From contig DASVOS010000011.1 in NCBI GenBank assembly GCA_036383255.1, positions 126,007 to 190,006 of the forward strand: DNA of 64,000 nt, read 5' to 3'. The DNA is from Gammaproteobacteria bacterium. Its GTDB lineage: Bacteria; Pseudomonadota; Gammaproteobacteria; Natronospirales; REEB76. The position numbers and the translations under genes are program-made. This document shows positions 48,560 through 59,738 of this stretch, piece by piece; positions within the stretch are counted from its first letter, which is position 1; each line of letters starts with the position of its first letter. Under the pieces are notes generated by a model that worked only from the letters and a program-made list of their open reading frames with translations, had not been told where the DNA came from and made no database searches.

Positions 48560-48581
48560 ATCTAAGGCGTGATGAAAATAA

Positions 48582-48610
48582 AAAAGCCCACCTGATCAAG
48601 GTGGGCTTTT
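48582..48610. terminator. Rho-independent terminator (bidirectional)
   Basis: AAAAGCCCACC pairs with GGTGGGCTTTT across a TGATCAA loop. It serves the secreted protein gene on + and could also stop read-through from the tRNA-Arg element on the minus strand. Confidence 0.8.
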
Positions 48611-48616
48611 CATTGA

Positions 48617-48838
48617 TGGCGCGCCCGGAGGATTACGGCGGGCTATCCCTGCCCGCCGCCCTTCGGGCCAGCGCCGAAGCGGCGCTGTTCAAAATCGTTC
48701 TAAGCTCGGATATCCCTTCCTCGCTAAGAACCCAGGGTTTGCCATCCATGGCAAACCCGCTCAGCGCTACGCGCTGAGCCCCGGCGATTTTGTCGAACTC
48801 GCCGATTGAAACGTCGGGAGTTCGAATCTCCCGGGCGC
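48617..48838 (-). repeat. tRNA-associated composite element, Arg copy
   Basis: It is read on the minus strand, 3' of tRNA-Arg and its terminator. It starts with an inverted copy of the tRNA-Arg T-arm and acceptor (48813-48838; 18 identical bases, then one deletion). GTTCGACAAAATCGCC (48783-48798) follows, then about 90 bases with two private hairpins. Next is the shared block from TTTTGAACAGCGCCGC to CGTAATCC (48694 to 48630). It ends with a direct copy of the tRNA-Arg 3' end including the CCA (48617-48630). The Ser copy at 59494-59622 has the same plan. Confidence 0.8.
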
Positions 48839-48841
48839 ATG

Positions 48842-48873
48842 AAAAAAGCCCGCCTAAAAGGCGGGTTTTTTGC
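48842..48873 (-). terminator. Rho-independent terminator of tRNA-Arg
   Basis: CCCGCC/GGCGGG stem flanked by A- and T-runs, seven bases beyond the tRNA CCA on the minus strand. Confidence 0.75.
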
Positions 48874-48879
48874 TTTAGA

Positions 48880-48956
48880 TGGCGCGCCCGGAGAGATTCG
48901 AACTCCCGACCACCTGGTTCGTAGCCAGGTACTCTATCCAGCTGAGCTACGGGCGC
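48880..48956 (-). tRNA. tRNA-Arg (anticodon ACG)
   Basis: A 77-base gene with encoded CCA. The acceptor GCGCCCG pairs with CGGGCGC, the D arm is GCTCAGCTGGATAGAGT, and the anticodon stem-loop is CCTGG-CTACGAA-CCAGG with ACG. The T arm is GGGAG-TTCGAAT-CTCTC, and the discriminator is G. ACG, modified to ICG, reads the CGN arginine codons. Partial extra copies of this gene lie on both sides (48617-48838 and 49113-49177). Confidence 0.97.
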
Positions 48957-49025
48957 TTAGAACTGTCTGTCTAAATCTAGTCTCGTCCTTCCCTGGTATT
49001 CATCCAGCTCGGCTCCCTGCCTCGC

Positions 49026-49064
49026 GCGAGCCGCATGCGGCTCGCCCACCTCGGCATCCCTGCC
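49026..49064. repeat. 20-bp palindrome plus TCCC-loop hairpin
   Basis: GCGAGCCGCATGCGGCTCGC (49026-49045) is a perfect palindrome. GGCA-TCCC-TGCC (49053-49064) follows. Both lie between intact tRNA-Arg and the upstream tRNA fragments. Confidence 0.5.
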
Positions 49065-49112
49065 TCAGCTTCGCCGGGCGAAGCTATCGCTTCGCTGGGG
49101 AGGCCGGCTCAG

Positions 49113-49177
49113 CCAGCTGAGCTACGGGCGCTTGGATCGAGCAGAACCCATGACCACCTGGTTCGTAGCCAGGTACT
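49113..49177 (-). pseudogene. tRNA-Arg fragments (5' part and anticodon arm)
   Basis: Bases 49113-49133 are identical to the 5' acceptor/D-arm part of tRNA-Arg (48938-48958). Bases 49152-49177 are identical to its anticodon arm and variable region (48908-48933). On the minus strand the anticodon arm comes before the 5' part, so these are pieces of two degraded tandem copies, not one gene. The remaining stretch between the tRNA and the regulator gene holds no other feature. Confidence 0.75.
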
Positions 49178-49277
49178 TAATAAGGGCTCGGCGAAGGGCG
49201 TGAATTATCCCGGCTTGGCCCCGCCGGGTCAAGGAAAACGGCCCAAAAGCCCGTTAAAACAGGCTCTTGGACCGTTC

Positions 49278-51203
49278 CTATTGGGGCAGGCAACCGATCT
49301 GGCCGAGCCGCTTGGTGAGACTGAGGAAGTCAGAACGGGTGCACAGGGGCTTCAGGCTCGGCCACACGCTGAGGAACGGCACCAGGGTGCTCACGTCCTT
49401 GTCCCGCACCGCCCCCGCCAGCACCGTATAGGCCTGGTCGGGTTTGCCGAGGTGCATGTAGGCGTCCGCCAGGAACACCGCGCTGTGCTTGTCCGCCGGC
49501 GCGCGGGCAGCCTGGTCCGCGTACCAGTTGAAGTAGCTCACCAGCGAACCGTGGCCGCTGCCCTTCACCCTGGCTATGTCCGCGGCCGGGGCCTGCAGCA
49601 CCTGCATCTCCACCGCGGCCTGCTGGGCGGCCTCGGCGTACTTGCCGGCGCCGAGCAGGCTCAAGGTCAGCAGGTGCTGCGCGAGCCGGTCCTGGGGGTT
49701 GAGGCCTGCGTTGGTGCGGGCGCTGCTCTCGGCCTTGGCGTACTGGCCGGTGAGGTAGGAGACCAGCGCCAGATCGTCGGTGGCGCTCACCGAGGCCGGG
49801 TCCAGCGCGCGCGCCGTGTCCATGGCGTTCTGCATGCCGCTGTTCTGGCCTACCGCCACCAGGTACTCGCCGTAGGCCTGCCATGCCCAGGCATCGCCCG
49901 GGTTGAGGCGCAGGGAATCCTTGAACTCGGGACCCGCCTTGGCGAGGTCCCAGTCGTAGTACATGTCCAGCTCGCCCTTGAGCAGCTTGGACTCGGCCGA
50001 GCCCCCGTCCAGGCTCAGCGCGCGCGCCACCAGCTTGCGCACGTCGTCGAGGTCGGCGCGCTTCATGTCCTGCTCGCGCAGCAGTGCGCGGGCGGCACAG
50101 GCGTAGGCGGCGGCGAAACCCGGGTCAAGAGCGATGGCCTTCTGGCAGCCGTCATAGGCCTCGTCGAGCTTGCCCTGGCCGATGAGGTAGCGGCCGGTCT
50201 GGAAGGCGATGGCGGCATCGCGGTTGTTGGTGAACGCGAGCGGCTTCACCGTGGCGTTGGGCGCGAGCAGCGTCGCCACTTGGGTCGCGATGCGGATCAC
50301 CAGCTGGCGGTAGGCGCCGCCGGAGTAGTTGGTATCGAGGTCGTACTCGTCACCCCACACGTAGCTCTGGTCCACCGAGCGGATGAGCCGCGCCGAGATG
50401 CGGTAGCCCTGGGCCTGGCGGGTGATGGAGCCCTCCAGCACGAAGTTCGCGCCCAGCTCCTGGCCGATCTGCTTGATGGTCTCGCCGCCCTTGAGGTAGT
50501 GGGCCGACGAGGTGCTGGCGATCACGCCCAGGCGCTCGGGTGCGATGGGACCGAGCAGGTTGATGACCTCGTTGGAGATGGAGGCGCCCAGGATCGCATC
50601 GCCCTGGTTCGGCGAGAGATCGTTGAACGGTAGCACCGCCACCACGGTGGCCGGGCTGCCCTCGGCGCCGGGCACGTAGCCCGTGCCGCGCTGCTTGTAG
50701 AGCATGAAGGCGACCAGCACCAGGATCAGCACCGGCACCAGCACCGCCGCCAGGTGCACCGGGCGCAGGCCGGGGACAGCGGCGGGCGGCGCAGCCGGGA
50801 CGGCGGCAGGCATGGCCGCGGCGGCGGCCTGGGCGCGGCGCTCCAGCGCCTGGCCGTCCTCGCTCACGCTCACGGGGAACACGAACTTGTAGCCGCGCCG
50901 CGAGATGGTCTGGATGTAACGCGTGCCTGAGGCGCCGTCGTTGAGCGCGATGCGCAGCTGCCGCACGCAGGCGCTGATCCCCTCCTCGAACTCCACCACG
51001 ATGTGGCTGCCCCACAGGTGGTTCTTGATCTCCTCGCGCGAGACGGTGGTGTTGGCCTTGCGCAGCAGCAGTTCCAGCAGCTTCGCCACCTGCGGGCGCA
51101 GCTGCGCGGTCTTCTGGCCGTCGTTGAGCTCGCCGCTGTGCGGGTCGAAGACGTATTGGCCGAACGTATACTGCACTCGGGTCGGCTCCTGAACGCTGTT
51201 CAT
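49278..51203 (-). CDS. CadC/ToxR-type membrane regulator: winged helix, one membrane helix, TPR sensor
   Basis: A 641-residue one-component transmembrane regulator. Residues 11-110 form an OmpR/PhoB-type winged helix: TFGQYVFDPHSGEL, RPQVAKLLELLLRKANTTVSREEI, GISACVRQLRIALND and YIQTISRRGYKFVFPV. An Ala/Pro linker leads to a single membrane helix at about 149-169 (HLAAVLVPVLILVLVAFMLY). The periplasmic part has a TolB/adenylate-cyclase-like beta region, with VVAVLPFNDLSPNQGDAILGASISNEVINLL, and then several TPR units. ATG at 51203 is the likely start; the open frame reaches 51341. It lies next to Sel1 and TPR genes and convergent with none. The signal and targets are unknown. Confidence 0.85.
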   Translation of the reverse strand: MNSVQEPTRVQYTFGQYVFDPHSGELNDGQKTAQLRPQVAKLLELLLRKANTTVSREEIKNHLWGSHIVVEFEEGISACVRQLRIALNDGASGTRYIQTISRRGYKFVFPVSVSEDGQALERRAQAAAAAMPAAVPAAPPAAVPGLRPVHLAAVLVPVLILVLVAFMLYKQRGTGYVPGAEGSPATVVAVLPFNDLSPNQGDAILGASISNEVINLLGPIAPERLGVIASTSSAHYLKGGETIKQIGQELGANFVLEGSITRQAQGYRISARLIRSVDQSYVWGDEYDLDTNYSGGAYRQLVIRIATQVATLLAPNATVKPLAFTNNRDAAIAFQTGRYLIGQGKLDEAYDGCQKAIALDPGFAAAYACAARALLREQDMKRADLDDVRKLVARALSLDGGSAESKLLKGELDMYYDWDLAKAGPEFKDSLRLNPGDAWAWQAYGEYLVAVGQNSGMQNAMDTARALDPASVSATDDLALVSYLTGQYAKAESSARTNAGLNPQDRLAQHLLTLSLLGAGKYAEAAQQAAVEMQVLQAPAADIARVKGSGHGSLVSYFNWYADQAARAPADKHSAVFLADAYMHLGKPDQAYTVLAGAVRDKDVSTLVPFLSVWPSLKPLCTRSDFLSLTKRLGQIGCLPQ

Positions 51204-51440
51204 GCCGCGGCTGTCGGCCGCGCCACCGGGCTCGGCACCCCGGACCGCCAGCGCCACCCGCGCCTGGGGCCCGGGCCTGCGCATCACATCATATCCAGCC
51301 TCGCCGGGCGGGGCTATGCGCTCCAAGGACGTCGGATTCACGTGTGGCTCCCCTGCATGTCCGGAAGATCACATGGGTGCTGCCGCCGCCGGCGGTGCGC
51401 GGGACGCGCCCGCCGGCCGGCAGATCCGCGCCGGAAACCG

Positions 51441-52211
51441 TCACTGCCTCTTGTACGCGTCAGGAGCGACGTACAGGGTGCGGCTGAGTTTCTCCGCTGC
51501 CTGTATCTGTTCCTCGCTCATGCCGTCGGTGATGATGGGCTTGGCCTCCGCGATGTCCACGCCGCCGCGCTGGGCCAGGAGCAGCCAGGCATAGGCCCGC
51601 ACGTCATCCTGCTGCTCGACGCCCTCGGCGTTGTGGTACATCACAGCCAGGTTGTACTGCGCGGCGGGCAGGCCCTGGCTCGCAGCCTTGGTGTACCAGC
51701 GCATCTCGGCGGCGGGATCCGCGTCCATGCCCTTGCCGTCGCCGTACATCATGCCGAGCTGGAACTCCGCATATGGATCGTTGCGGCGGGCCGCGAGCTC
51801 GAACCAGTGACGCGCCTGGGCGTAGTCCTGAGGGAAGCCCTGGCCGTTGTAGTAGAGCGTGCCGAGGTTATAAGCGGCGGTGGCGATGCCCATGTCGGCG
51901 GCGCGCTTGTACCAGGCGGCGGCCTCCGCGTACTTGCCGCGGGTGGTGAGCATCACGCCCAGGTTCGCCTGGGCCTCCGCATCACCGAGCCTGGCGAGTT
52001 CCTCCGCCTGCTCGATATCCTGGTCGGTATAGGTGGTGTTGCCCGGCACCTTGTCCACGTAGGCCGGCGGATGGATGTAGATCACCCTGACCCCGGGGGG
52101 CAGATGGTCGTCGGCGGACGCCAGCGGCGCCGCCAGTGCCAGCGCCAAGCCCATGAGGGCGAGCAAGGCCGGCTTGTACGAATCGGAGAGCAGTTTCGGG
52201 TCGCGGTTCAT
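51441..52211 (-). CDS. Exported Sel1-repeat protein
   Basis: A 256-residue protein. The signal peptide runs to about residue 33 ([20 protein letters not shown]) if ATG 52211 is the start. At least three Sel1-like repeats are visible: [66 protein letters not shown] and [36 protein letters not shown]. Such repeats form a protein-binding solenoid. It is upstream of the winged-helix/TPR regulator on the same strand with a 237-bp gap, so it may be a periplasmic partner of that regulator. Confidence 0.85.
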
Positions 52212-52297
52212 GACGGAAATCCTCCAGGGGTACCTGTCGCTTACGACCACAGGTATAGCCGAGGAGTCCCCGGGACAGGCCGAAAATCTTCTGATTT

Positions 52298-52735
52298 ATG
52301 GCTGATTCATATATTTGGGCCCTGCGGGGCCAGGCCATAGGCAGGATCGCCCCGTCAGCTTGTCAGCATCGCCGCTGCCCCGCGGTGGCGGCTTCTGCGA
52401 AGGTGGCGGCGTCATCCCGACCGGTATGGAGGTACCGTCCGGTGGCGCAAGCCCATGACTCCTGGCGGCAGACCCGTGCGCAGGCACGCTGGCGGGACGA
52501 ACTCGCGCAGTGCGAACAGGCGTTGCGCGAGGTACCCGGCGTGGACGCGCTCTGGCGCCTCGCCCGCGTGCGGCTCGCCCTGGGCCAGCGTGGGGAGGCG
52601 CGGCGACTGCTGGAACTCGCCCTGGAGCAGGATCCAGCCAGCGTGGAGGCGCGCTTCTATCTCTCGGTGGCGTCGTTCATCGCGGCCGAGCCTGCAGTGG
52701 AACGGCCGGCGGCCGTCCCGCTCCGGGCGGCTTGA
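52298..52735 (+). CDS. Possible small TPR protein
   Basis: A 145-residue frame whose C-terminal half (RWRDELAQCEQALREVPGVDALWRLARVRLALGQRGEARRLLELALEQDPASVEARFYLSVA) reads like two TPR-type helical hairpins. The first ~55 residues are Arg/Ala-rich and unconvincing, so the real start may be a later GTG/ATG (for example near 52453). Its 3' end overlaps the stop region of the convergent Prc gene by 79 bases. A real but short gene is plausible. Confidence 0.4.
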   Translation: MADSYIWALRGQAIGRIAPSACQHRRCPAVAASAKVAASSRPVWRYRPVAQAHDSWRQTRAQARWRDELAQCEQALREVPGVDALWRLARVRLALGQRGEARRLLELALEQDPASVEARFYLSVASFIAAEPAVERPAAVPLRAA

Positions 52736-54804
52736 GACCCGGGCCGCGCCAGCTCGTGCATGTCGGCCACGATGGCCGCGCCCTCACGCAACGCCACATC
52801 CTGGGCGCTCGCCACCTCGCCGCCGCCACCCGGCGCCTCCGCCGGCGTGCCGCCGGTGAGCTTCTTCCAGGCCAGCTCGTCCTTGTCGCGCCAGGCCTGT
52901 TCCTGCTCTTCCACGTGCCGGCGCGCATCCAGCTTGAGTGAGAGGCTAGTGGCCGCGGCGTCCTGCTTCAGGTGCTCGACGTCGCCGATGTAGAGCCGGA
53001 ACAGCGGGTCGTCCTTGGCGCGCTGCTCGTGGCGCTTCTTCAGCTCCGGCAGTATCGCGTCCACCTTGTAGTCCAGCGCCTTGTAAGGCACCGGCGCGAT
53101 GGTGTCCCAGGGCAGCGGGTTGTCCTCGGTCTCCTCGCCGAACTGGGTCGGGTCGATCTGCGAGGGCAGGATGATGTCCGGAGCCACGCCCTTGTCCTGG
53201 GTGCTGGCGCCGGTGACGCGGTAGAACTTGTCCGAGACGAACATGAGCTGGCCGGCCTCCGCCTCCGCGTCGGTCATCTCCGAGAGGTCGGCGAACTGGG
53301 TGGCCACGCCCTTCCCGTAGGTGTCGTTGCCGATGATGACGCCGCGCCGGTAGTCCTGCACCGCCGCCGCGAAGATCTCCGAGGCCGAGGCGCTGAGGCG
53401 GTCCACCAGCACCGCCAGGGGGCCGGAGTACACCGGCGTGGTGCTGGAGCGCACCACCGTGACCCGGTCGCCGGAGCTGCGCAGCTGCACCATGGGGCCC
53501 CGCGGGATGAAGAGGCCGGCGAGGTCCGCCGCCTCCTGCAGCGAGCCGCCGCCGTTGTTGCGGATGTCGATGATCACGCCTTCCACGTGCCGGGACTTGA
53601 AGCCGTCCAGCAGGCGGCGCACGTCGCGCGTCACGCTGTTGTAGTCGGGCTTGCCGGCGGCGCGCTCGTCGAAGTCGGTGTAGAACTCGGGGATGCGGAC
53701 CACGCCGATGCGGGCCACGCCGCCGCCCTTGCGCGGCACCGTGATCACGTCGCTGCGGGCCGCCTGCTCGGCGAGCTTGATGGCGTCGCGCACCAGGCGG
53801 ATCGGCTTGGTCGCCGAACCCGCCCGTGCGCCGGCCGGCAGCACCTGCAGCCTGAGCACCGTGCCCTTGGGGCCGCGCGTGAGCCGCACCACGTCGTCCA
53901 GCCGCCAGCCCACCACGTCCACGAAGTCGCCGCCATCGCCCTGTCCCACCGCGGCGATGCGGTCGCCCGGGTGCAGCGCACCGCTCTTGGCGGCAGGGCT
54001 GCCAGGCAGCACCCGCGCGATCTTCACGTAGTCGTCGTCCGTCTGCAGCTCGACGCCGATGCCCTCGAGCTTGAGGCTCATCTGGGTCTTGAACTGGTCG
54101 TACTCCACCGGCGGGAAGTACTCGGTGTGCGGGTCCAGCGCCCGGGCATAGGCGTTCATGAAGGTCGCGAACACGTCGTCGCTGTCGAACTTGTCCACGC
54201 CGTCGCGCAGCGTGCTGTAGCGCTTCTTCAACAGCGCCTGCGCCTGCGGCCAGGTCTTGCCGTCCAGCATGAAGTCGATCACGTCGTTCTTGACGCGCTT
54301 GCGCCACAGGTCGTCGAGCGCCGCGGGATCCTTGGCCCAGGCCTTGGGCTTGTCGTCCAGCGGCAGGGACTCGTCCTGGCCCAGGTCCGGCTGGGCAGCG
54401 AGCTGGGCCAGCGCGTAGTCCATGCGCGCGTCGAAACGCTGCTTGAACACGGCGTAGATGGCGAACGCGGGCTTGAGGTCGCCGTCGCGGATGCTGTCCG
54501 CCAGCGTCAGGCGGTAGGACATGAAGGAGTCGATGTCCGACTGCAGGAAGTAGCCGTGGCTCTGGTCCAGGGTCTTCAGGTACTCGTCGAAGATCTTGAC
54601 CGCGAGCCCCGCGTCCAGCGGCTCGCGGCTGTAGTGGTAGTGGGTGAGCACGTAGGCCACCGCCTGATCCACGGCGGCCTGCCCCGGCTGCGGCGCGATG
54701 ACGGCCGGCGGGTTCTCGATGGTCGCGGACGCCGTCTGCGTGTGCGCGGCCGGATACAGCCAGGCGAGGTTCGAGACGAGCAGCAGCAGGAGCTTCTTGT
54801 TCAT
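52657..54804 (-). CDS. prc: Carboxy-terminal processing protease Prc (S41A, tail-specific protease)
   Basis: A 715-residue periplasmic serine protease that trims C-terminal tails and regulates peptidoglycan hydrolases. A signal peptide covers residues 1-25 (MNKKLLLLLVSNLAWLYPAAHTQTASA). The N-terminal helical domain precedes a PDZ domain at about 240-320 (GIGVELQTDDDYVKIARVLPGSPAAKSG). The S41 domain has EGVIIDIRNNGGGSLQEA, then the catalytic serine in LVDRLSASASEIFAAA (about 471-475) and the lysine in GNDTYGKG (about 498). ATG at 54804 is chosen over the upstream frame to 54855 because it starts the signal peptide. Confidence 0.94.
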   Translation of the reverse strand: MNKKLLLLLVSNLAWLYPAAHTQTASATIENPPAVIAPQPGQAAVDQAVAYVLTHYHYSREPLDAGLAVKIFDEYLKTLDQSHGYFLQSDIDSFMSYRLTLADSIRDGDLKPAFAIYAVFKQRFDARMDYALAQLAAQPDLGQDESLPLDDKPKAWAKDPAALDDLWRKRVKNDVIDFMLDGKTWPQAQALLKKRYSTLRDGVDKFDSDDVFATFMNAYARALDPHTEYFPPVEYDQFKTQMSLKLEGIGVELQTDDDYVKIARVLPGSPAAKSGALHPGDRIAAVGQGDGGDFVDVVGWRLDDVVRLTRGPKGTVLRLQVLPAGARAGSATKPIRLVRDAIKLAEQAARSDVITVPRKGGGVARIGVVRIPEFYTDFDERAAGKPDYNSVTRDVRRLLDGFKSRHVEGVIIDIRNNGGGSLQEAADLAGLFIPRGPMVQLRSSGDRVTVVRSSTTPVYSGPLAVLVDRLSASASEIFAAAVQDYRRGVIIGNDTYGKGVATQFADLSEMTDAEAEAGQLMFVSDKFYRVTGASTQDKGVAPDIILPSQIDPTQFGEETEDNPLPWDTIAPVPYKALDYKVDAILPELKKRHEQRAKDDPLFRLYIGDVEHLKQDAAATSLSLKLDARRHVEEQEQAWRDKDELAWKKLTGGTPAEAPGGGGEVASAQDVALREGAAIVADMHELARPGSQAARSGTAAGRSTAGSAAMNDATER

Positions 54805-54973
54805 GGCACCGGTCTTGGAGGGTAGGGAGCGGCGGGCGGCGCCGGCATGGCTCATTGTATCGGGCCCGGGGACCTCACGATTGGACCATGCCCGCCTCTG
54901 CCAGTTCAGTGGCGCAGGTCACAGCCGGCGCAGTGCGGCTTCACACGGGCTTCCGGTGCCCCGGGTGGCTACC

Positions 54974-55831
54974 CTAGCGATAGCCGCCCGGCGGCGGGGT
55001 GCTGGGTGCGGTCTCGGACGCGGGCGGAGGCTGCGGGGGCGTTGCCGGCGGCGGAGGCGCCGGCGGCGTGAACGTATAGACCAGCGAGAGGGCGGTCACC
55101 GCGTCGGTGTTCTTGAACCCCGGCAGCACGGCGCTGTTGTGGGTGACCGTATAGGACACCGACAGCGCGAAGCTGTTGTCCAGGTTCGCGGTGAGCGTGC
55201 TCACCGACTGGCTCAAGGTGTTGCTGGAGCCGTGCACCATGCTGAAGTTCTCGGTGAAGTTGCTGTTGGCGCTGAACTTCCACAGGTAGCTCGCCGCCAG
55301 CCGCTCCACCGGCTCGGACTCGCGCAGGCCCGTGGTGTAGTGCGTCTGGCGGCCGCCCACGCCGAACTCGACGTCGAGCTGCTGGGTGCTGGTGGTGAGC
55401 AGCCGGTGGCCGAGGCCCACCACCTCCGAGACGCGGCGCTCGTAACCGCTGAACACGTCGCGCAGGTAGTCGAGGTTGCCGAACAGGTAGTCGTTCGGGT
55501 CCAGGTTGTAGTCGGCCTGCCCGTTGAAGTTGAAGCTCTCGGCGATGAGGCCGCCGTCCTGGCTGGCCTTGAGGGTCTGCACCAGCACGGAGTCCTGCCA
55601 GTTGCCCGACCGGTAGCCCGCCAGCGCCTTGCCGTTGAAGGTGGAGCTGTTCACGTTGCCGGTGGTCTGCAGGTAGCCGAGCGCGACCGAGCCCTGCCAG
55701 CCCTCCGCCACCGCGGTCTGGCGCGCCGCGTCGGCGTTCGCCTGCAGGTCGGTGAGGTTCGCGTCGGCGCGCGCGCCACTCATGCCCAGCGCCGCAACCA
55801 GCGCCATCGCTACGATCCCTGCTCGCACCAT
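54974..55831 (-). CDS. DUF481 outer-membrane beta-barrel protein
   Basis: A 285-residue exported protein. The signal peptide is MVRAGIVAMALVAALGMSGARA. The mature chain shows the DUF481 pattern: GWQGSVALGYLQTTGNVNSSTFNGKALAGYRSGNW, then alternating beta strands (NFNGQADYNLDPNDYLFGNLDYLRD, VGLGHRLLTTSTQQLDVEFGVGGRQTHY) up to a final strand ending LSLVYTF. DUF481 proteins are predicted small outer-membrane barrels often induced by salt or pH stress. Unusual here is a Pro/Ala-rich tail (about 30 residues) after the terminal Phe that normally closes the barrel. The function is unknown. Confidence 0.85.
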   Translation of the reverse strand: MVRAGIVAMALVAALGMSGARADANLTDLQANADAARQTAVAEGWQGSVALGYLQTTGNVNSSTFNGKALAGYRSGNWQDSVLVQTLKASQDGGLIAESFNFNGQADYNLDPNDYLFGNLDYLRDVFSGYERRVSEVVGLGHRLLTTSTQQLDVEFGVGGRQTHYTTGLRESEPVERLAASYLWKFSANSNFTENFSMVHGSSNTLSQSVSTLTANLDNSFALSVSYTVTHNSAVLPGFKNTDAVTALSLVYTFTPPAPPPPATPPQPPPASETAPSTPPPGGYR

Positions 55832-55918
55832 GATCCGGGCGCCTCCATCCCATCCTGCACCGGATGATAAGGGAAGCGCCCGGGACGGGCGTTTTTACAT
55901 GACAGTATGCGGTCTACC

Positions 55919-58900
55919 TCAGAACTTCACCCCCGCCGTCACGTACAGGAAGCGCCCCGGCGTGCGGTAGAACGTGGGCAGGAAGCTGTTGGCGAAGGCG
56001 GACATGGCGATGGGCGGCTGCTTGTCGAACAGGTTGCGCACGCCCACGCCGAAGTCCGAGTCCAGCACGTCCACGTGGTAGGTCAGCTGCACGTCGTGGT
56101 AGACCGTCGCGCCGATATGGTTACCCGGCACCGGGCCGCTCTCGAACGGGAAGTCCACGGTGAGCGGACAGCGGCTCGGCGGGTCCACCACCACCGCGGC
56201 CGAGCAGTCCTCCACCAGCGCGCCGACGTACTGCACGTTCCAGCTCGCCGACCAGTCGCCGCGGCTCCAGTTGAGGTTGAGGGTGGCCCGCTGCTTGGGG
56301 ATGCCGCCCGTGACCGAGCTCGTGCCGGCGGTGCCGGCACCGTTGGTGGTGGTGCCGGAGAGCTCCTGGCTGCTGAAGTCGGTGCCGAACGCCAGGGTCG
56401 CCACGTACTGCTTGGTGAACGACCACTCCAGGCCGGCCTTGAAGTCCCCCACCGCGGTGGAGGGGAACTTGTAGTGCAGGCTCAGATCCATGCCCTCGAC
56501 CTTGATGCCGCTGGCATTGATGTTGAGGTTGTCGATGTTGGTGATGGCCCCGGGCGCGTTGGCGCCGTGGTCCCCGCCCGAGCGGGTGATGAGGCTGCAG
56601 TAGCGCGGCTGGCCGTGCACGTAGCAGCCGTCCAGGACCAGCTGCGCCGGGATCTGGCTGATGGCGTTCTGCAGGTTGATCTTGTAGTAGTCCGCGCTCA
56701 CATCGAACCCAGGCAGCCAGTCCGGGTCGTAGACGAAACCCACCGTCTGGGAGATGGCCCGCTCCGGCGTCAGGTTCGTGTTGCCGCCGATGGTGGTGTG
56801 GATCTCGCCGCTGCCCGGGAACTGCAGCGAGTACGGCCCGGCACCGCACTTCGGGGCCTTGACCGGGTTGGCGGGCGTGACCACGCAGGGATCGGTGAGG
56901 AACTGGAAGCTGTCGCTGTCCGCCAGGAACAGGTCGCTGATGCTGGGGATGCGGAAGCCCTGGGTCCAGGAGGCGCGCAGCAGCAGCTGGTCGTTGGACT
57001 GCCAGCGCAGCGAAGCGCTGCCGGTGGAGGCGCTGTCGGTGTGCGCCGCCAGGTTGCCCGTGTTCAGCGCCCCGCCCTTCCACTCGAAGTGCGACCAGCG
57101 GTTGGCGAGGTCCAGGTCCACCTTCTGCATGAACGGCAGGCCCGCAGCCAGCGGGATGTCGAACTCCACATACTCCGCCCGGGTGGTCTCGCGCCCCTCG
57201 GTGGGCGGGATCAGGCTGTTGGCGGTGTTCCCCTGGGTCACCAGCGCGTCCGGGTGCGAGAAGCCGTCGGTCTCCAGGTACTCGGCGCCCAATGCCATGC
57301 CGAGCGGCCCCGCCGGGAGGTCCGCCAGGGTGCTGCTGGTGTTGGCGGTGTAGTTGCGCATGTTCTGGGCCACCACGTCGTGCTGCTCGAACAGCACGTA
57401 GTTCAGCATCCCCGGCGTGATGGTGCCGTCGCCGCCGAAGATGTTGAGCGGGGTGCAGCCGGCTCCCGCGCCGGCGCAGGGCGCGGCCCCCGGCACGCCC
57501 AGCTCCTGCTGCAGCCGGAACGTGTTCACCACGCCGCCCGCCCGGTCGCTCTCGTAGTTGTTGCCGTAGGCGAAGCCGGCGTCCCAGTCCCACTCCTTGC
57601 CGAGGAAGCGGTAGTACCCCTCGAAGCCGCCGTTGAACTGGAAGTTCTTGACGGTCTGGGTGAACACCCGGTTGCCGCCTTCCGACAGGCGCCGGCCGAG
57701 GAACAGCAGCGAGTCGCAGCTGCCGGCGAAGATGCAGGCGTCGCTGGAGTTGCCCACCAGGTCCACGCCGAAGGGGTTGTAGGGGTTCTGGCCCGAGATG
57801 CCGACCGCCACGCCGTTCGCCTTGGCCTGGCCGAAGGCGCCCAGGGTCAGGGTGTTGGGCGCGAGCTGCTGGGAGGACTTGCGTTCGTTGAACAGCGCCT
57901 GGGTGCTGAAACTGAGGTTGTCGGCGATGTCGTAGTGCCCCTCCAGGTAGAAGGCGCTGCGCTCGCTGGGGATGGCGAGGAAGTTGGCGGGAGCGTAGTT
58001 GAAGCGGTCGCCGTTGCCGATGTCGCGGAAGTTGCTCAGCGAGGGGCCGTTGGAGCTGCCCGCATGCCCCGGCTTGGGCGTGTCGACCAGGGTCATGGAG
58101 CAGGTGCCGTAGCTCGTCAGCGTCGCGGAGCCGGGGCAGCCGTTCACGTCGAGGATGTTGAACAGCCCGCTGGGCGTGAGGAAGCTGCCTCCCCGGGAGC
58201 CCACCACGGGTTCCTTCGAGATTGTGCGGTCGCCGGCGAAGATCGGCGCCTCGTTCACGTAGGAGACGTTCATCACCGCGCCGCCGCGGTCGCCCGCGCT
58301 GCCGAGGGTGAAGTCGTATTGCTCCTCCTGCCCGTCCCAGCCGCCGCCGTCGGCGTGGGCGTCGTACTTGCCGAAGTGGGCGTTGGCCTCGGCTCCGTTG
58401 TAGCGCTTGAGGGTGATGATGTTGATGACGCCGGAGATGGCGTCGGAACCGTACAGCGAGGAGGCGCCATCCTGCAGGATCTCCACGTGGTCCACCACCG
58501 CCACCGGCACGGTGTTGAGGTCCACGTCGCCGCCCAGGCCGCTCACCACGCGCTTGCCGTCCAGCAGCACCAGCACGCGGTTCGCGCCCAGGTTGCGCAG
58601 GTCGATGTTGGTGCGGCCGCTGCCGCCGTTGTTGAACTGCCGGTTGGGCGCCGCGCCGGTGGAAGGCAGCTGCTGCAGCACGTCGCCGAGCGCGGTGAGG
58701 CCGGTGGCCTTGATCTGCTCCTGGGTCACGATGGTGATGGGGCGGGCTGCCTCCACGTCGGCACGCTTGATGCGCGTGCCGGTGACCTCGATCTTGCCGA
58801 GCTGGGCGCTGCCCGGCGGCGGGGCAGCCTCCTCCGGGGCGGGCTCCTGGGCCAGGGCAGGTGCGATCTGCAGCACGGCGCCCGTGAGCAGCAGGCCGCG

Positions 58901-58936
58901 GATGGTCTTCGACAGGGACAGCGAGCGGATTGCCAT
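55919..58936 (-). CDS. TonB-dependent outer-membrane receptor
   Basis: A 1005-residue active-uptake receptor. ATG at 58936 gives [30 protein letters not shown] as the signal peptide, with GGGGAGA upstream. The plug domain spans roughly residues 45-165. It carries [44 protein letters not shown] and [13 protein letters not shown], then [27 protein letters not shown]. The rest is a large barrel ending in a terminal aromatic (AGVKF), as needed for Bam recognition. It belongs to the long, Asn/Gly-rich TBDR class common in Xanthomonadales-type genomes, often used for complex carbohydrates, peptides or siderophores. The ligand cannot be told. A dyad at 58985-59004 lies about 50 bases upstream. Confidence 0.94.
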   Translation of the reverse strand: [1005 protein letters not shown]

Positions 58937-58984
58937 CTGATATCTCCCCAAGTCGTCGTTGTGGATGCTTCTCTGCGCGAGGCG

Positions 58985-59014
58985 AGTACTATTTTCGACG
59001 TACTATACTATTAG
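58985..59014. promoter_or_regulatory. AT-rich dyads upstream of the TonB-dependent receptor
   Basis: AGTAC-TATTTTCGAC-GTACT (58985-59004) is an inverted repeat sharing the TATTTTC centre of the dyad at 47913-47935. TACTA-T-TAGTA (59004-59014) is a second dyad. Both lie in an AT-rich patch within the 405-bp gap to tRNA-Ser. The rest of the gap has one hairpin (GCGAAGGCC/GGCCTTCGC, about 59248-59268) and no convincing gene. Confidence 0.45.
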
Positions 59015-59341
59015 TAGTAAGGGAGTAAAGTGGTTACCGCTGCGCGCGCGGAGAAGTGGCTTTGCCGGCGATAGGGGGTTACACGGGTGCGCCGCAGAGC
59101 GGAACGCGACGGTCAGTGCTGGCGGAGAGAGGAGCGAAGGCGGCGCTCCATGCGGGCATGGCGCGCATCCGCCGCCGGTGAAGCGGCTGTCTCTTTTTGA
59201 CCGGCCCGTGCCCTGCCCGGTATCATGCGCCCCCTGACCCCTTGGGCGAAGGCCGTAGGCCTTCGCAGCCGGACAGGGCGAGCCGCACAACGGCGAGCCG
59301 CTGGAAGGCACGTCAAGCGAAGCAAAAAATCCTGAGTTCTT

Positions 59342-59435
59342 GGAGAGGTGGCCGAGTGGTCGAAGGCGCGCCCCTGCTAAGGGCGTATACGGGCTAAAAC
59401 CTGTATCGAGGGTTCGAATCCCTCCCTCTCCGCCA
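59342..59435 (+). tRNA. tRNA-Ser (anticodon GCU)
   Basis: A 94-base class II tRNA with encoded CCA. The acceptor GGAGAGG pairs with CCTCTCC, discriminator G. The anticodon loop is CTGCTAA with GCT, for the AGC/AGU codons. A long variable arm (GTATACGGGCTAAAACCTGTATC) and the T arm GAGGG-TTCGAAT-CCCTC are intact. It lies next to csrA as in other gammaproteobacteria but on the opposite strand to csrA. Confidence 0.97.
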
Positions 59436-59438
59436 ATT

Positions 59439-59478
59439 CGATAAAAAAGGGCCTCCTCCGGGAGGCCCTTTTTTATCG
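59439..59478. terminator. Strong terminator directly after tRNA-Ser
   Basis: An 18-bp perfect stem with loop TCCG begins four bases after the CCA. A-runs on the left arm pair with T-runs on the right, so it works in both directions. Confidence 0.9.
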
Positions 59479-59493
59479 AACTTGGGGAGGCAG

Positions 59494-59622
59494 TTCGAAC
59501 CCTCGATGCATATAAGGCTGGTTCGACAAAATCGCCTGGAGCAATTTTGAACAGCGCCGCCTCGCGGCGCTGGCCCGCAGGGCGCCGGGCAGGATAGCCC
59601 GGCGTAATCCCTCCCTCTCCGC
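59494..59622 (+). repeat. tRNA-associated composite element, Ser copy
   Basis: It is read on the + strand, 3' of tRNA-Ser and its terminator. An inverted copy of the tRNA-Ser T-arm (59494-59510, 16 of 17 bases) is followed by GTTCGACAAAATCGCC (59521-59536) and the shared hairpin block (59545-59610). It ends in a 17-base direct copy of the tRNA-Ser 3' end (59606-59622 equals 59417-59433). The plan is the same as the Arg copy at 48617-48838 without the ~90-base insert. Confidence 0.8.
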
Positions 59623-59643: not shown

Positions 59644-59675
59644 TCATAAAAAAGAGCCCTTCGAGGGCTCTTTTT
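59644..59675. terminator. Bidirectional terminator between the tRNA element and csrA
   Basis: AAAAAAGAGCCCT-TCG-AGGGCTCTTTTT; it can end both the + strand tRNA region and the minus-strand csrA transcript. Confidence 0.85.
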
Positions 59676-59738
59676 CATTGGATCCGAAAAGCATGGAAGC
59701 CCGCGTGCGGGCAGATCAACGCCTCGGGAAGCGGGGAT

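Follow-up and report, generated by a model that had tools for sequence, protein, structure and literature searches.

The window analyzed here, a 64,000-nt stretch of a Gammaproteobacteria bacterium genome (GenBank assembly GCA_036383255.1, contig DASVOS010000011.1, positions 126,007 to 190,006 of the forward strand), contains exactly two tRNA genes according to ARAGORN: tRNA-Arg(ACG) on the minus strand (48880..48956) and tRNA-Ser(GCT) on the plus strand (59342..59435). Both genes are intact, and a composite repeat lies directly 3' of each. Reading away from the gene, it consists of a terminator (T1), an inverted copy of the T-arm of that tRNA, GTTCGACAAAATCGCC, a block of hairpins that we call the core, a direct copy of the tRNA 3' end and a second terminator (T2). 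An earlier reading of the letters without database searches (the sequence-only reading) had proposed that tRNA-Arg(ACG) and tRNA-Ser(GCU) share this plan, and ARAGORN together with the sequence bears it out from the terminator through the 3'-end copy. Additionally, a direct T-arm copy ending in GTTCGA precedes the core in both cassettes.

In the tRNA-Ser cassette, which runs along the plus strand, T1 (GGGCCTCC/GGAGGCCC followed by a T-run) occupies 59443..59476 and the inverted T-arm 59484..59507. The left flank of the target, a direct copy of the T-arm 5' side ending in GGTTCGA, lies at 59514..59526. It is followed by a palindromic core of four hairpins (59527..59606; covariance model match of 72.3 bits), the first of which, H1 (59527..59549), has GGA in its loop, while the fourth, H4 (59583..59604), has CAGGA. 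A 17-nt direct copy of the tRNA-Ser 3' end (AATCCCTCCCTCTCCGC) occupies 59606..59622, and T2 lies at 59648..59676; pairs of occupied and empty sites, described below, suggest that T2 is the displaced resident terminator. The tRNA-Arg cassette has the corresponding parts on the minus strand: T1 (48841..48871), an inverted copy of the T-arm and acceptor side (48808..48839), a direct copy of the T-arm 5' side (TCGGCGAGTTCGA; 48793..48805), the core (48634..48792), a direct copy of the tRNA 3' end that has two bases fewer than the tRNA (AATC-CTCCGGGCGCGCCA; 48617..48634) and T2 (48577..48610). This core is a long form with extra hairpins, including GGGTTTGCCATGGATGGCAAACCC, inside the loop of H1, and its 3' part (48634-48697) is the block common to both cores. 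The long form with nested GGA-loop hairpins recurs in the tRNA-Arg cassettes of two relatives (L300 and L304). Without the core, TTCGA would abut ATCC and the T-loop would be whole again; the unit is thus better described as an incomplete copy of the tRNA that the core cuts exactly in the T-loop, ...GTTCGA^core^ATCC...CCA.

Pattern, BLAST and covariance searches found five copies of the core in the 2.59-Mb genome, each directly 3' of a tRNA gene (Arg-ACG, Ser-GCT, Ser-CGA, Ser-TGA and Ser-GGA). The Ser-TGA copy is exceptional, having no inverted T-arm and flanks that resemble another Ser tRNA. An exact 27-nt pattern retrieved 98 stretches from named genomes of Gammaproteobacteria and a few other groups. 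Across 67 tRNA-linked copies, which span 14 isoacceptors, the longest identity between the downstream flank and the local tRNA end averaged 13.9 nt, compared to 5.7 nt for other tRNAs, and many copies were identical to the local end over 19 of 19 nt. A model of the core, R1, had matches in 30 of 56 relatives and in 39 of 150 genomes sampled across the phylum. Within the relatives, 70 of 108 matches lay within 450 nt of a tRNA gene, a fraction biased upwards because the seeds of both model and pattern were copies next to tRNA genes; an estimate assuming 45 tRNAs at ~1 kb each in 2.5 Mb gives an expectation of ~2%. Two expectations of the sequence-only reading, that copies should lie mostly behind other tRNA genes and that their flanks should match the local tRNA, thus hold.

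The units measure ~150-260 nt between the repeated gene ends. No integrase gene lies in the cassette, and the space is too short for one. Near-identical units stand in tandem at two loci (L014 and L256), and several loci have identical trailers before and after the tRNA copy. Core similarity is 0.75 between different tRNAs of one genome and 0.69 between the same tRNA in different genomes. We rejected purely vertical descent by tRNA type since similarity within a genome exceeds that for the same tRNA, although gene conversion would have the same effect.

The core, ~70-80 nt long, folds into four hairpins that are under structural constraint. In an alignment of the 108 matches, which was fitted to the structure and so leans towards it, the covariation score was 0.539, compared to 0.139 +/- 0.008 for shuffled versions and at most 0.082 for slid ones, and 19 of 20 pairs had changes on both sides. 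GGA is kept in the loops of H1 (94 of 103) and H4 (93 of 98) while the stems of these hairpins vary. The H4 loop often reads CAGGA(T/A/C)G, the motif of CsrB repeats. Additionally, the inverted T-arm is able to pair with the copied tail, and its own tail was the best partner in 12 of 50 copies, where 1.6 were expected. A csrA-like gene, recognized in the sequence by eye, adjoins the tRNA-Ser cassette at 59.74-59.9 kb on the minus strand. Since alaS-csrA-tRNA-Ser is the usual gene order, the meeting of this neighbor with CsrA-like GGA loops is probably a coincidence of gene order.

The borders and target of the core are precise. It sits at NNGA^A, mostly TCGA^A, in the T-loops, D-loops and anticodon loops of partial tRNA copies and in copies of 5S rRNA 3' ends, and at its head the junction reads NNGA^C, mostly TCGA^CAAA. 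One anticodon-loop case consists of tRNA-Ser(CGA) 5' pieces in tandem upstream of the intact tRNA (L017/L189, G037:C1:458100-459900). Where cores are joined head to tail, the junction is GTA directly followed by CAAAATCG, which fixes the borders. Judged against homologues free of the element, insertion at TCGA^A involves no target duplication. Orientation follows the sequence of the T-loop: in TTCGAA loops the core is sense in 45 copies and antisense in 1, while in TTCGAG, TTCGAC, TTCGAT, TTCAAG and TTCAAC loops it is antisense in 15 and sense in 2. The associated p value of 2e-11 treats copies as independent and is inflated by tandem copies, as ~8 loci in 6 genomes account for the antisense cases. 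The cassette plan is unchanged in antisense copies. We conclude that the target sequence sets the orientation of the core. This is the prediction of an NNGA^A target read on either strand, and it is unexpected if only the sense RNA mattered.

The core also occurs outside stable-RNA genes. It interrupts TTCGA^A in genes for IS91-type transposases, a Klebsiella plasmid homologue of which lacks it, and it occupies the same TTCGA site in such genes of several divergent genomes (L053, L057, L062, L071, L088, L112 and L126); most of these core-bearing genes look broken. In three unrelated genomes (L064, L107 and L111) it lies in frame within the gene for BrxHI, a helicase of the bacteriophage exclusion (BREX) system (PADLOC E = 0), and adds 25 or 26 codons at a Leu-Phe-Glu site; the added residues include ...GPSMDPAPAGPAWRLSKIAPGDF..., and homologues without the core read LFE or LF. 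In both kinds of protein gene the core is on the non-coding strand. Finally, one genome (G046) has a ~200-bp repeat resembling a miniature inverted-repeat transposable element (MITE), with inverted ends GAGCTTGTGAA/TTCACAAGCTC, that carries the core in at least four places (L240, L243, L245 and L260). We considered an autonomous parent in this multi-copy genome and rejected it, as the repeat there is a MITE carrying the core, with no transposase seen. Because the IS91-type, BrxHI and MITE copies have no gene-end repeat, the core is an independent unit, and it is not bound exclusively to tRNAs. The earlier proposal, insertion of an element at the 3' ends of tRNA genes with duplication of the target, was largely right. 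At one further locus (L087), a core copy lies in the leader immediately before an adenylosuccinate synthetase-like (purA-like) reading frame.

According to the sequence-only reading, no described family has this layout. Here it erred: the RtT repeats of Escherichia coli share it, and the T1-T2 region of rrnB is their 5S counterpart. The tyrT-tyrV locus of E. coli K-12 (RtT, RF00391) has the identical layout in four units, which R1 scores at 14.7-26.2 bits. Conversely, several family loci align with the entire Rfam RtT model at 37-41 bits (E values of 1e-3 to 1e-6, depending on search size). The gathering threshold of this model, 45 bits, was exceeded in three relatives (58.4, 46.0 and 45.6 bits) but not in the genome of the window, where the best score was 27.8 bits and the tRNA-Ser copy of the window reached 23.9 bits. 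Matches to other Rfam families (rsmX, mir and others) were far under their thresholds, and we rejected them.

R1 also had a match of 68.7 bits in the stretch that terminators T1 and T2 enclose at rrnA, rrnB and rrnD; among the seven K-12 rrn ends compared, it had no match at rrnC, rrnE, rrnG or rrnH. Here the core interrupts a repeated 5S 3' end (GAGTAGGA^core^AACTGCCAGGCATCAAAT, where the gene reads GAGTAGGGAACTGCCAGGCATCAAAT). This arrangement recurs behind 5S in a genome from another family, where the inverted copy comes directly before the direct copy. In 5426 complete E. coli genomes, the rrn core was present in 3915 (~72%), in 1-9 places each, and the first RtT (tyrT) unit in 1921 (~35%). 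The rrnB T1T2 cassette is used in expression vectors.

In published work, covariation in RtT is mentioned (PMC8250186), rtT-like attenuators are described (PMC2965389), and rttR is among entries bearing repetitive extragenic palindromes (REPs) (PMC12306157). The accessible literature, in which RtT comes up only in passing, contains no connection between RtT and the rrn T1-T2 region, although subscription literature may have noted the 5S repeat before. In what is searchable, there also seems to be no earlier link between the wider family, its 5S/rrnB member, the rule that governs orientation and the core as a free-standing unit.

Pairs of occupied and empty sites show how a unit is placed. At tRNA-Arg, an occupied relative (G007) and its empty sister (G009) are 80% identical over aligned bases, and the downstream flank is displaced behind the copy. 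Within K-12, occupied rrnA and empty rrnG are 92% identical, as are the occupied tyrT locus of K-12 and its empty counterpart in strain SK1144. In all three pairs, the sequence next to the gene at the empty site is found, at the occupied site, behind the copied gene end. The incoming unit is thus placed upstream of the resident 3' end and carries its own copy of that end: the gene in occupied sites keeps an intact 3' end, and the resident end and its flank sit behind the core. In the tRNA-Arg and rrnA/rrnG pairs the incoming unit also brought a new terminator. In additional sister species, sites at tRNA-Ser(GCT) and tRNA-Arg are empty, as the sequence-only reading had anticipated. In E. coli, BLAST coverage of joined flanks failed to separate empty from occupied rrnB or tyrT sites.

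Two further observations concern tRNA-Arg. At L294 and L295, in G009 and G002, integrase-like sequence, read by eye from the DNA, follows the tRNA gene as if at a conventional attachment site. Behind a second tRNA-Arg isoacceptor (L302, in G008) there is a downstream 3'-end copy (CCGCCGGGCGCGCCA) and palindromes (CCCAGCCATCCATGGCTGGG) with no clear core, which could represent either the remains of a cassette or a duplication without the core.

Several explanations compete for these observations. The suggestion that the repeat is a conserved RNA module transcribed with the tRNA can be stated more fully: a transcript from the tRNA or rrn promoter would be processed into an RtT-like small RNA (sRNA), GGA-loop hairpins would bind a protein such as CsrA, and the structure would be kept for RNA function. 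The strong covariation, the presence of several GGA-loop hairpins (in H1 and H4) as in RNAs of the CsrB/RsmX type, the preference of the inverted T-arm for its own tail, the sRNA annotation of E. coli rttR and the RtT model matches at family loci all fit this account. However, 26 of 45 and 14 of 35 copies, and on inspection by eye both window copies too, have an intrinsic terminator that separates the core from the tRNA; antisense copies keep the plan, cores lie on the non-coding strand inside protein genes, and E. coli RtT has no GGA loops. We consider RNA function unlikely as the explanation for the repeat, though for some members it stays viable on account of the GGA loops, the covariation and the known RttR RNA. 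The classical view of tyrT offers another account, in which 3' ends of tRNA and 5S genes were passively duplicated in tandem and a palindromic repeat landed by chance in the redundant copy. It would explain near-identical tandem units and identical trailers around the copy, but it sits poorly with a core at the same T-loop position behind 14 isoacceptors. Moreover, the gene-adjacent terminator differs from the resident one at rrnA/rrnG and tRNA-Arg, which places foreign sequence in the unit, and most sister empty sites examined do not show a 3'-end duplication without the core. We consider passive duplication decidedly improbable.

The 19-nt repeats could instead be the attL and attR sites of decayed tyrosine-integrase elements, such as phages or integrative and conjugative elements (ICEs), in tRNA genes. 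The extent of the repeat, from T-loop to CCA, and the displacement of the resident end recall elements that integrate into tRNA genes, and some sisters have the integrase-like sequence behind tRNA-Arg. Such remnants would hardly all measure ~150-260 nt and contain the same core with no integrase gene, nor would 5S genes be used, or the core alone enter IS91-type and BrxHI genes with no gene-end repeat. We give this possibility very little weight.

The reading that we favor, and regard as probable, is that the composite repeat is an RtT-type "3'-end cassette" that restores the 3' ends of stable-RNA genes, and that its core is a non-autonomous, target-specific palindromic insertion element. Each cassette comprises a copied 3' end of the RNA gene, in most cases an intrinsic terminator, a short stretch of the gene copied first inverted and then directly, and the 70-80 nt core of four hairpins. 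The core would be moved by a trans-acting enzyme that reads the short target, perhaps on single-stranded DNA in the manner of IS200/IS605-type (HUH) elements. In essential stable-RNA genes, only insertions that restore the gene 3' end, as cassettes do, would survive. The gene-end duplication could arise when a cassette that already has a gene end recombines at the shared ~19 nt, or when an insertion that would otherwise kill the gene is rescued by template switching, which might leave the inverted copy at the joint. Persistence of the cassette may be owed to its extra terminator. A broader proposal, which we put forward tentatively and hold as somewhat short of an even chance, is that these are an unrecognized class of gene-less mobile cassettes specialized in stable-RNA genes, which bring along the 3' end of their host gene, mostly with a new terminator, and so swap the ends of tRNA or 5S genes harmlessly, with a core that jumps between gene families via NNGA^A on either strand and with RtT and rrnB T1-T2 as the E. 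coli members.

Several results weigh against the favored reading. No mobilizing enzyme was found, and neither an autonomous element nor an excision product was seen. The Y1 transposase domain (PF01797) has no match in the genome of the window, and a resident RAYT/Y1 transposase was rejected as mobilizer, with Y1 present in 18 of 28 core-bearing and 37 of 67 other genomes (p = 0.50). Guide-type pairing between the target and the bases after H1 was no more frequent than in shuffles, in the one simple layout tried. The tRNA-Arg cassette of three genomes (G000, G005 and G007) looks vertically inherited, so that present-day mobility is presumed. TTCGAA, being palindromic, should permit both orientations, yet sense copies prevail there almost without exception, and more than the 5-mer must matter. 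The seeding bias in the tRNA-linked fraction belongs here as well.

Taken together, our comparisons place the window repeats in a widespread and little-recognized family whose members, short hairpin cassettes, adjoin tRNA and 5S rRNA genes of bacteria on the 3' side and copy the end of the adjacent gene. They also link sequences that have been studied apart for decades: the RtT repeats of tyrT and the rrnB T1-T2 segment of expression vectors. If the favored reading is true, rRNA and tRNA terminators in Gammaproteobacteria have repeatedly been replaced by mobile cassettes. The in-frame insertion in BrxHI shows that the same element can also add protein residues. The presence/absence variation of the rrn core and the first tyrT unit makes the reading directly testable in E. 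coli.

RtT is one of the closest known systems. Like the family, it has an inverted T-arm hairpin, a T-arm 5' side ending in TTCGA, a hairpin core ending in GAGTA, an exact tRNA 3' end with CCA after the core, and tandem units; both window copies have the inverted T-arm, the TTCGA, the hairpin core and the copied 3' end with CCA. They differ from RtT in falling below its gathering score and in having other core hairpins, with GGA loops, and the family differs in its terminators between tRNA and core and in using many isoacceptors and 5S rather than tyrT only. The T1-T2 regions of E. coli rrnA, rrnB and rrnD resemble the window cassettes in being flanked by a terminator on either side; their host is 5S rRNA, however, their target is AGGA^A rather than TCGA^A, and their inverted copy is short or degenerate.

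The core also shares features with mobile elements. As in IS200/IS605-type elements, insertion occurs 3' of a short fixed target, with hairpin ends and no target duplication. Like REPs and bacterial interspersed mosaic elements (BIMEs), it is a short, GC-rich, imperfect, non-coding palindrome that is target-specific and does not duplicate its target; unlike the REP/BIME-RAYT system, it has no GTAG/GGAG head, no link to a Y1 gene in the tested genomes and a strong preference for stable-RNA genes. Finally, the cassette resembles phages and ICEs of tRNA genes in that the incoming DNA restores the gene 3' end and displaces the resident one, but it carries no genes, spans 150-260 nt, uses the same core in many isoacceptors and 5S, and has a core that inserts alone.

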